Positions 44,805-47,286 of a stretch of DNA of 64,000 nucleotides are shown here, piece after piece. The stretch spans positions 1,798,001-1,862,000 of the forward strand of contig CP051228.1 in assembly GCA_017792345.1 (NCBI GenBank), in the 5' to 3' direction. Position 1 is the first letter of the stretch. The number at the start of each line of letters is the position of its first letter. Source of the DNA: Mesoflavibacter sp. (GTDB lineage: Bacteria > Pseudomonadota > Alphaproteobacteria > UBA8366 > Aestuariispiraceae). The notes beneath the pieces are model-generated. The model had not been told where the DNA came from, searched no databases, and saw only the letters and a list, made by a program, of their open reading frames with translations. The position numbers and the translations under genes are program-made.

Positions 44805-45551
44805 GTGCATCGATCGGGGATGGGAAAGGGCTGCGTGGCGGCCCTGTTGGGTTTTCTGCTTTTCGCGTCGGCCGCAGATGCACAGGACGATACCTATATT
44901 GCCGGCGAGATTCACGGCATCACCGTCTTTGCCTTCCATCCCGAGGCGGAGCGGATCGGCAATGTCCGCACGACCGACGCCGAAACCGCGATGCAGACGA
45001 TCGGGGCGGCCATCGACCGGGCCTATCGCGGCTCCGAATTCACCCGCAAACGGATCGACGCCCTGAAGAAGAAGGGCGATATCGAATTCTATTACGACGC
45101 CAACCATCCGAAGAATGTGATGTCGGAGGTCAATATCGCGCTGTATCTGCCGGAATATTACGCGCCGTCCAAGGGCAAGCGGACCTTCCTGATCCTGATC
45201 GGCCGCACCGGCATTCAATGGACCAATGACGAGCTGGCCGCCGCCGTCGCCCATGAGTTGGCCGGACACGCCTATCAGCGCATGCAGGGTCGATTGCGCG
45301 ACATGCGCATCCTGGACGCCGAATGCGAGGCCTATCTGGTCCATGAGCAGGCGAACCAGGATATCGGCGCCGACAAAACGACGGACGAAGCCATCAGCCT
45401 GCGCCAGGCGACCGATTATCACTGGTGCGACGATTTCCGGCGCTGGACCTTGGCCGAGGGGCTGGCCGTCGCGGACGAATGGGACGAATTGAACCCCGAC
45501 GTGCCGGCGCTGCTGAAGGCGTTCAAAACCTACATCGCGGATCAAGGCTGA
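44805..45551 (+). CDS. Secreted protein with HExxxH-like motif
   Basis: The 248-residue protein is not recognised. It starts with GTG at 44805, six bases after GGGGAGGA; an ATG at 44820 is the alternative. A signal peptide follows (CVAALLGFLLFASAADA, cleavage near residue 25). The rest is mostly soluble. AAAVAHELAGHAYQRMQGR recalls a metallopeptidase helix, but has three residues between HE and H instead of two. An acidic residue follows (ILDAECEAY, E of a possible third ligand). Whether it is an enzyme is open. It has no obvious operon partner. Confidence 0.6.
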   Translation: MHRSGMGKGCVAALLGFLLFASAADAQDDTYIAGEIHGITVFAFHPEAERIGNVRTTDAETAMQTIGAAIDRAYRGSEFTRKRIDALKKKGDIEFYYDANHPKNVMSEVNIALYLPEYYAPSKGKRTFLILIGRTGIQWTNDELAAAVAHELAGHAYQRMQGRLRDMRILDAECEAYLVHEQANQDIGADKTTDEAISLRQATDYHWCDDFRRWTLAEGLAVADEWDELNPDVPALLKAFKTYIADQG

Positions 45552-45603
45552 CGGGGGCGGCCTGTTCTTTACAGGCAACGGCGCGGTGATATTCTGAGCC
45601 TAC

Positions 45604-45727
45604 CTATCCATGTGCGGCTAGGGTTCCGCCGTCCCCGGAAATCGTTTGCGGGAACGGGCCTGGACCGAGCGCCGTTATGAGCCGTGTACGGCAGACACCC
45701 GAGGACTAAAAACCCGGAGGGGATGGA
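45604..45727 (+). promoter_or_regulatory. ykkC-class riboswitch, most likely guanidine-I
   Basis: The 124-base leader carries the ykkC landmarks in order: GCGGCTAGGGTTCCGC at 45614, CTGGACCGAGCGCCG at 45660 (consensus CUGGUCCGAGAG), an inverted GCC...GGC hairpin, then GACACCC, GGACTAAAAACCCGG and GAGGGGA. The 5' TCCAT (45607-45611) and 3' ATGGA (45723-45727) pair to close helix P1. The class senses guanidine (subtype 1), ppGpp or PRPP (subtype 2). The EamA permease starts 46 bases downstream. Translation control is likely since no intrinsic terminator is visible. Confidence 0.8.
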
Positions 45728-45772
45728 AAGGGCGTGGTTACGCACGTCTTCATTCCAACCCGCGAGGTCGTC

Positions 45773-46630
45773 ATGTCCCTTTTCGGTCTGTTTCTGGTCC
45801 TGCTGGCCGCAATCTGTCACGCCACCTGGAACTTCTTCGTCAAACGCATCAATGCCGGGCCGGAACTGGTCTGGCTGTTCTCCCTGATCGCCGCCGTCCT
45901 GTATCTGCCGCTCGCCGTTTGGATCTACCTTTCGGAGGCTCCGTCCTTCGGGGCGGTGGATTATCTCTTCATCGTCGGCAGCGCCCTGCTGCACCTCGCC
46001 TATTTCCTGTTGCTGCAGACCGGATACCGGCATGGCGACCTGTCCCTGGTCTATCCGACGGCGCGGGCGACCGGGCCGGTAATCTCCACCGGCCTGGCGG
46101 TTCTGATCCTGGGCGAAACGGTTTCGCCCCAGATCGTCGTCGGCGCGGCGGTCGTGATCTTCGGCGTTCTGAACCTGACCGGTGGTTTTCGTCGCGGCGG
46201 CGGATCGATGGGAATTTCGTTGGCCTTCGGTCTGGGCGCGGGATTGCTGATCGGCAGCTACACCGCCTGGGACGCCTACACGGTTTCACTGCTGGCCGTG
46301 CCGCCGCTGTTGCTGGATTACGCGTCCAGCATCGCGCGGTCGACCGTCCTGGCCCCGATTGCCTGGCGCCGCCGCGCGCGGGTGGCGCAGATTTGGCGCA
46401 ATCACCGCGCCGGTGTCCTGGTGATCGCGGTGTGCAATCCGCTGGCCTATATCCTGGTGCTCTACGCCCTGACATTCACCCCGGTGGTCTATGTCGCACC
46501 GCTGCGCGAGACCAGCGTCCTTCTGACCGTGCTGGCCGGCAGCCTGTTCCTCGGTGAGGGGAACTTGAAGACCCGGCTGACCTGGTCGGCAGTCATTCTG
46601 GCGGGCGTCTCGATCCTGGCGACGGGTTAA
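45773..46630 (+). CDS. EamA-family (DMT) permease behind a ykkC-class riboswitch
   Basis: The protein has 285 residues and ten helices in two EamA repeats. It begins MSLFGLFLVLLAAICHATWNFFVKR, a start shared by EamA permeases of the RhaT-like branch, and ends LFLGEGNLKTRLTWSAVILAGVSILATG. The ATG at 45773 has GAGG seven bases upstream; the GTG at 45734 is an alternative inside the leader. The riboswitch at 45604-45727 directly precedes it, which makes guanidine or a related compound a candidate substrate. The known guanidine exporter Gdx is a four-helix DMT protein; this would be a ten-helix relative. Confidence 0.88.
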   Translation: MSLFGLFLVLLAAICHATWNFFVKRINAGPELVWLFSLIAAVLYLPLAVWIYLSEAPSFGAVDYLFIVGSALLHLAYFLLLQTGYRHGDLSLVYPTARATGPVISTGLAVLILGETVSPQIVVGAAVVIFGVLNLTGGFRRGGGSMGISLAFGLGAGLLIGSYTAWDAYTVSLLAVPPLLLDYASSIARSTVLAPIAWRRRARVAQIWRNHRAGVLVIAVCNPLAYILVLYALTFTPVVYVAPLRETSVLLTVLAGSLFLGEGNLKTRLTWSAVILAGVSILATG

Positions 46631-46647
46631 GAGAGAAATCCAGCCTC

Positions 46648-46700
46648 TTGACCGTTTAGGACAAGTGTCCTATATCCGTGTTTAGGACAAACGTCCTAAA
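46648..46700 (+). promoter_or_regulatory. TetR promoter with two tandem operators
   Basis: A strong promoter, TTGACC (46648-46653), 17 bases, TATATC (46671-46676), precedes the TetR gene. Operator 1, TAGGAC-AAGT-GTCCTA (46657-46672), lies between the -35 and -10 boxes. Operator 2, TTTAGGAC-AAAC-GTCCTAAA (46681-46700), covers the transcription start. Their centres are 26 bases apart. Two near-identical palindromes over one promoter are typical of strict TetR autorepression. Confidence 0.85.
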
Positions 46701-46719
46701 CACGGTAAGGAGGCGCGGC

Positions 46720-47286
46720 ATGGCGCAGGATACGAAGCGGGCGCAGATCGTGGAGGAGGCGGACCGGCTGTTCTATCAGCAGGGGTTCGACCATACATCC
46801 TTCGCGGATATCGCCGATGCCGTCGGCATATCCCGGGGCAATTTCTATTATCATTTCAAGACCAAGGACGAGATCCTGGACGCCGTGATCGAACGGCGCA
46901 TCGTCAATACGCAGGCCATGCTGGACCGTTGGGAAATCGAAGGCGAGACGCCGGAGGCGCGTATTCGCGGCTTCATCGATATCCTGGTGGTGAATGCCGA
47001 CAAGATCCGTCAGTTCGGTTGCCCGGTCGGCACGCTGACATCCGAACTGACCAAGCTGGGCCATCCGTCCCTGTCCGGCGCCAAGGAGTTGTTCACCCTG
47101 TTCCGCCAATGGCTGAAACGCCAATTCGAAGCCATGGGCGTGACGGAAAAGGCCGATGAGCTGGCGATGCATCTGCTGATGCGCAGCCAGGGCGTCGCCA
47201 CCCTGTCCGCCGCCTTCAAGGATGACAGTTTCGTCCGCCATGAGGTGGACCAGATGTACCGTTGGGTGCGTGATCAGGCCGCCTGA
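46720..47286 (+). CDS. TetR/AcrR-family transcriptional regulator
   Basis: The 188-residue protein has a TetR DNA-binding domain: AQIVEEADRLFYQQGFDHTSFADIADAVGISRGNFYYHFKTKDEILDAVIERR, residues 8-60. The C-terminal ligand-binding domain has one cysteine in RQFGCPVGTLTSEL. The ATG at 46720 follows AAGGAGGCGCGGC. Two palindromes over its promoter (46657-46700) are the likely autorepression sites. YciI and a cyclase-family gene follow on the same strand, 49 and 123 bases apart, so this may control their expression as well. Confidence 0.93.
   Translation: MAQDTKRAQIVEEADRLFYQQGFDHTSFADIADAVGISRGNFYYHFKTKDEILDAVIERRIVNTQAMLDRWEIEGETPEARIRGFIDILVVNADKIRQFGCPVGTLTSELTKLGHPSLSGAKELFTLFRQWLKRQFEAMGVTEKADELAMHLLMRSQGVATLSAAFKDDSFVRHEVDQMYRWVRDQAA

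Follow-up and report, generated by a model that had tools for sequence, protein, structure and literature searches.

Which compound does a ykkC-class RNA sense when it stands directly ahead of a ten-helix EamA permease, and does that permease export guanidine? The question is posed by a leader and gene within the window, the stretch of 64,000 nt of DNA analysed here. The first-pass annotation had named the gene a candidate guanidine exporter under riboswitch control, with the proviso that the subtype must be fixed first, and with this proviso we agree. The RNA has C, not A, at the position that in print separates guanidine-I from subtype 2. The leader is likely a ykkC riboswitch of the 2d type that senses a small metabolite other than guanidine and turns on translation of an EamA exporter. 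Observed here were an aptamer with covarying helices, a changed base at the discriminator and an EamA gene behind each variant RNA inspected; riboswitch function we infer.

Transporters of the EamA (originally phn_DUF6) and TauE families are the published targets of subtype 2d RNAs, which were described as an orphan ykkC riboswitch in 2018 (PMC5912903) and again in 2020, when a review gave their ligand as undetermined and named them a remaining orphan among the ykkC riboswitches (PMC7266159). The pairing of RNA and EamA gene to which the earlier annotation drew attention is real, but it was already in print as this orphan subtype, to which the window leader adds a new member. The open-licence literature, as far as it was accessible, yielded no 2d ligand, and the sections seen of two reviews (PMC10043782, PMC12186494) name none; one may be in print elsewhere. 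Compared by published description only, the window locus resembles 2d in its ykkC aptamer, its changed pocket position and the EamA (phn_DUF6-like) gene behind it, and no difference from that description was found, with TauE-linked variant RNAs absent among the loci examined. New here are a 47-sequence alignment with covarying helices that include P0, the division of these RNAs into two sub-groups, and evidence in many relatives for pairing between P3 and the Shine-Dalgarno (SD) region. The window itself holds a clean and complete member of the 2d type, in which a promoter-like site and the aptamer precede just one target gene (Table 1).

The variant aptamer and its helices

All of the landmarks by which the leader had been recognised as ykkC-class were found in order at its place: CTAGGGTTCCG (45618-45628), CTGGACCGAG (45660-45669), GACACC and GGACTAAAAACCCGG (45703-45717). 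The pair TCCAT/ATGGA had been taken for the closing helix P1; it is instead the add-on helix known as P0 from subtype 2 aptamers, and P1 is formed by GCGGC/GCCGT. In the suggested comparison with Rfam, Guanidine-I (RF00442) was the sole match up to E=10 between 45500 and 45850, over its full length and with E=1.4e-5, but its 38.4 bits fall 24.6 bits short of the gathering score of 63. No Rfam family reached its cut-off anywhere in the whole 64,000 nt, and a search of the window's own genome (4.9 Mb, one contig) with RF00442 gave one match. Folded by itself, the window leader has an unremarkable minimum free energy (z -0.83), which counts against a structured RNA.

Table 1. Features of the leader and gene, in window coordinates
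Feature	Position	Strand	Basis
Promoter-like TTTACA-16-TATTCT, TG before second hexamer	45568..45595	+	Consensus scan
ykkC-variant (subtype 2d-type) aptamer	45604..45729	+	R1 98.3 bits, R2 106.5 bits (partly by construction, as the window RNA is in the training sets of both); RF00442 38.4 bits
P0 helix, 5' strand TCCAT, partner 45723-45727	45607..45611	+	4/5 pairs covary on both sides
P1 helix, 5' strand, partner 45671-45675 (GCGGC/GCCGT)	45614..45618	+	3/5 pairs covary on both sides
C at the subtype discriminator (A in guanidine-I)	45670	+	Mapped by alignment
P2 hairpin GCCGT/ACGGC	45681..45692	+	3/5 pairs covary on both sides
GACACC, replacing CACGG of guanidine-I	45694..45699	+	CACC in 59/59 variants, CACGG in 42/42 canonical RNAs
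P3 core, GG 45703-45704 with CC 45714-45715	45703..45715	+	Column pair 154-168
Linker hairpin directly 3' of P0	45729..45750	+	Folding against shuffles
Shine-Dalgarno GAGG	45764..45767	+	Read from sequence
Gene for an EamA/DMT transporter of 285 aa, with ten transmembrane helices read from the model	45773..46630	+	PF00892 1.2e-19

The variant alignment comprises 47 sequences, and covariation was calculated on the 45 distinct ones. Across these relatives 95.9% of helix cells are paired and 12 of the 22 modelled pairs have changed on both sides, an extent of covariation that none of 500 shuffles reached. The P3 column pair 154-168 is GC in 20 RNAs, AU in 17, GU in 3 and unpaired in the other 5. 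Three leaders (L113, L114 and L142) form a second sub-group with a P0 of UCGAC/GUCGA and with GCACCC, and the transporter of L113 is 33-39% identical to those of the window type. In the same three leaders a GAGAUC over the end of P0 could, by eye, pair with a GGUCUC at the SD. In another relative (L010, genome G034) the 3' part of the variant aptamer is interrupted at 1276-1542, after P3 and ahead of the 3' strand of P0, by an element some 265 bases long whose ends are inverted repeats.

Upstream of the aptamer, the consensus scan of 45450-46760 returned one promoter-like site against 0.3 expected. This site is a candidate only; a transcript started from it would begin just 5' of the aptamer.

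The discriminator base and the gene behind the RNA

Residue A46 of guanidine-I is a pyrimidine in subtypes 2a and 2b, and sorting on this position alone parted guanidine gene contexts from others (PMC6031431); by alignment it maps to 45670 in the window. We scanned for a CTAGGG-like core together with GGWCCRAGNG, counting identical RNAs once and only loci that bear the pattern. The discriminator is C in all 59 distinct CACC-type RNAs, and among 42 distinct CACGG-type (canonical) RNAs it is A in 41 and G in one. CACC and CACGG were the sorting criteria of the scan; of the features compared, the base at 45670 is independent of that sorting. The genes divide in the same way. An EamA-like gene lies within 1.6 kb on the same strand, by tblastn, for every one of the 59, and for none of the 42 canonical RNAs in the scan, 31 of which precede an ABC-transporter binding protein of the guanidine-linked type and 11 neither that nor EamA. 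EamA had priority in the labelling of genes, so a second gene further on is possible behind the C-type RNAs.

Most of the 59 come from an EamA-based search, and searches with RNA models, in which the protein was not used, therefore give the less biased figure. RF00442 had matched in 11 of 114 related genomes, seven times above its cut-off and four below, under strict filters that missed at least the variant RNAs of genomes G011 and G013. The four RNAs below the cut-off, the window's among them, have GGACCGAGCGCC, GACACC, a P0 helix and an EamA gene behind. From these four we built a model, R1, which was run on 385 genomes; a second model, R2, was built from 47 RNAs and run on 398 and 249 genomes, the sets for the two models overlapping. 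The variant RNA was recognised in 26 genomes, and an EamA-like gene comes next in all 26, a count that includes one gene behind an insert (L010) and one frame that ends early (L011). The remaining R1 and R2 matches that were inspected are canonical guanidine-I RNAs or noise; weak R2 matches in G952 (its second), G879, G868, G896, G939 and G979 were left out of the inspection. In the 47 leaders, too, the gene read behind the aptamer is EamA without exception. In the assembly of genome G022, the EamA frame behind the variant RNA (L011, 1635-2220) ends early, at about 195 aa.

Seen from the protein, the association is looser. A protein search confirmed at least 92 EamA loci, mostly in alphaproteobacteria, and of the best 80, which were kept, 42 have the RNA just upstream on the strand of the gene by R1, including two (L062, L079) on contigs that apparently match those of model members and one (L046) whose RNA is that of L014. 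The other 38 have no R1 match, which indicates that the EamA gene can do without the RNA, and a more permissive R2 search of these loci, in a set that also included L113 and L114, gave only chance-level matches in the 38 (E 2 or worse). One locus without an R1 match, L037, has a folD-like neighbour (by eye) as do the RNA-bearing L056 and L057, but a gap of only 96 bases; here the riboswitch seems to have been lost in situ. None of the five other genomes of the genus (G001-G005) has an EamA relative at E <= 1e-30; the pair is thus patchy in the genus and has perhaps been gained or lost by transfer. One of the five, G001, carries a guanidine-I RNA.

Five genomes hold both kinds of RNA (G011, G013, G836, G961 and G980), some in imperfect assemblies (7% contamination in G013, 74% completeness in G961). 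Two of them, G011 and G013, belong to the window's own family and have a guanidine-I RNA above the cut-off plus a variant with EamA. In a genome with both kinds, the two RNAs probably serve different ligands.

That the leader is a divergent guanidine-I riboswitch, with a permease that exports guanidinium, is very improbable, even though Guanidine-I is the only Rfam family matched, the core CTAGGGTTCCG...GG.CCGAG and the layout of P1, P2 and P3 are common to both, guanidine-I is what the 2d consensus resembles most, and the protein belongs to the superfamily of the guanidine transporters (PMC5912903). Against these likenesses stand the discriminator C in 59 of 59 relatives, GACACC in place of CACGG, the EamA gene, the shortfall in score and a covarying P0, which guanidine-I lacks and which in PRPP riboswitches extends the pocket (PMC6031431). 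Five genomes, moreover, retain a separate guanidine-I RNA. The protein also departs from the four-helix Gdx/SMR guanidinium exporters in being an EamA protein with ten predicted helices, and in an alignment by eye His16, not Glu, occupies what we take to be the place of the key Glu in TM1 of Gdx. The discriminator base, the score, the partition of EamA genes and the co-occurrence of both RNAs in five genomes led us to discard the guanidine exporter as a candidate. The EamA protein behind the window leader is probably not one, and annotation as a guanidine exporter should be avoided for any EamA gene that follows such a leader.

P0 and a pyrimidine at the discriminator are features common to the window RNA and subtypes 2a and 2b (PMC6031431), as would suit a riboswitch for ppGpp, PRPP or nucleoside diphosphates (ykkC 2a, 2b or 2c) ahead of a transporter. 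We consider this very improbable: behind 47 of 47 leaders stands EamA and no purine, amino-acid or NUDIX gene, unlike the gene context of the PRPP and ppGpp riboswitches, and the pocket changes of 2d are more prominent than the differences between 2a and 2b (PMC5912903). A degenerate or relic aptamer without function in this genome would fit the patchy occurrence of the pair in the genus and a coupling to the SD that is not evident in the window leader (see below), but all 22 modelled base pairs are intact in the window RNA, a promoter-like site lies directly upstream and the 285-aa frame is unbroken, which makes decay highly improbable. The preferred reading is thus a working 2d-type riboswitch.

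Proposed coupling of the aptamer to the Shine-Dalgarno region

A search of the stretch from aptamer to gene turned up no terminator-like site, and a terminator read-out was rejected. For the variant class the best model is a translational ON switch, in which the bound ligand would favour formation of P0, P1, P2 and P3 and leave the SD free, whereas without ligand a P3 strand would pair with the SD region; the freed SD would turn on translation of EamA, and the protein would export the sensed compound. The proposal thereby reasons beyond the observed elements to the ON direction, to export and to the ligand being the exported compound.

The pairing at the centre of this model is suggested by many relatives, and not by leaders of the window's type. 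In 22 of 42 leaders the P3 5' strand is complementary to the SD region over 11-15 pairs, at -14.3 kcal/mol or lower, and from one species to another changes in one partner are compensated in the other. In 52 leaders the P3 5' strand and its own SD give a mean of -13.7 kcal/mol, compared with -11.2 for swapped partners, and none of 10000 permutations is as low, a value that is optimistic because permutation ignores relatedness; own pairs that reach -15 kcal/mol number only 24 of 52, compared with 21% of swapped ones. The test was run with L010, L036, L064, L112, L135, L139 and identical leaders dropped, as well as L127, which has no recognised start. Within a P3 type, and with the same optimism, the observed value was reached in 0 of 5000 permutations for one type (28 leaders) and in 29 of 5000 for another (8 leaders). 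In the window's type (CGAG, 16 leaders) the helix between P3 5' strand and SD does not outdo swapped partners (720 of 5000), and there modest support (56 of 5000) goes to pairing of linker plus SD with the 3' strands of P3 and P0.

Folding gives a similar picture. Forcing the aptamer raises the predicted accessibility of the SD in 32 of 43 leaders, from a mean of 0.23 to 0.36; the window leader does the opposite, its accessibility falling from 0.49 to 0.21, which speaks against the ON model, and for this copy we infer the mechanism from its class. The linker hairpin has a mean of -11.7 kcal/mol, compared with -5.7 for mononucleotide shuffles, and in 25 of 44 leaders it lies below every one of 50 shuffles. 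As the alignment shows how these RNAs differ from guanidine-I and suggests a translational read-out, screening for the ligand with a simple reporter would become practical.

The transporter and its possible substrate

Directly downstream, as first annotated, lies a ten-helix EamA permease, with a PF00892 score of 71.4 bits that exceeds the gathering score of 28.2 and a DMT fold in the predicted model. The best NCBIfam family is TIGR03340 (phn_DUF6), matched over nearly its full length; scoring 120.4 bits where the curated cut-off is 288, the protein is like this family in its ten-helix fold and is not a TIGR03340 equivalog. Relatives score 96-160 in all eight scanned. The structure predicted by AF2 with 49 relatives has a mean pLDDT of 91.5 and 13 helical stretches, which may be read as ten transmembrane helices. 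A sequence search of the PDB gave no match up to E=1, and a fold search of it returned DMT proteins: the triose-phosphate translocator 5y78, the choline importer LicB (7paf), 5i20 and SLC35 proteins, with the phosphate translocator first by E-value and LicB second with the higher TM-score.

Invariant in 49 of 49 transporter relatives are H16, W19, N20, H74, Y77, Y85, Y94, P95, R98, Y163, D167, Y226, P237, R245, E246 and E262, as well as A12, L81 and L260. A narrower proposal, to which we give rather less than even credence, is that the 2d RNA senses a metabolite new to riboswitches that bears a negative group, that EamA exports this metabolite, and that either P3 strand may pair with the SD. 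A phosphonate, phosphate or carboxylate, rather than a guanidine-like cation, is named because P0 is common to the PRPP and ppGpp classes, because of the invariant His16, Asn20, His74, Arg98, Tyr163, Asp167, Arg245 and Glu246, and because the phosphate translocator came first in the fold search. With two arginines and two histidines among these residues, the substrate may be anionic or zwitterionic; D167, E246 and E262, invariant as well, point the other way, as does how well LicB fits. Were the ligand new, it would bring to light a toxic or waste metabolite so far overlooked in bacteria that, by their record titles, are mostly alphaproteobacteria.

Gene neighbours were rejected as a guide to the ligand, as no consistent partner surrounds the variant RNAs: among 444 reading frames around 43 of them, no neighbour besides EamA (and overlapping frames) recurs in more than 7 of the 43 loci, and the larger clusters trace to a single group of loci (L058, L061, L063, L067, L068, L072 and L096). 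The neighbours of RNA-less EamA genes, named by eye, are mixed (GNAT-like, PNPOx-like, dienelactone-hydrolase-like and cysteine-desulfhydrase-like).

Beyond the EamA gene, two palindromes, TAGGACA-AG-TGTCCTA (46657-46672) and TTTAGGAC-AAAC-GTCCTAAA (46681-46700), lie just 5' of a TetR-family gene (46720-47286). They are likely the operator of that gene itself, which is probably controlled separately from EamA.
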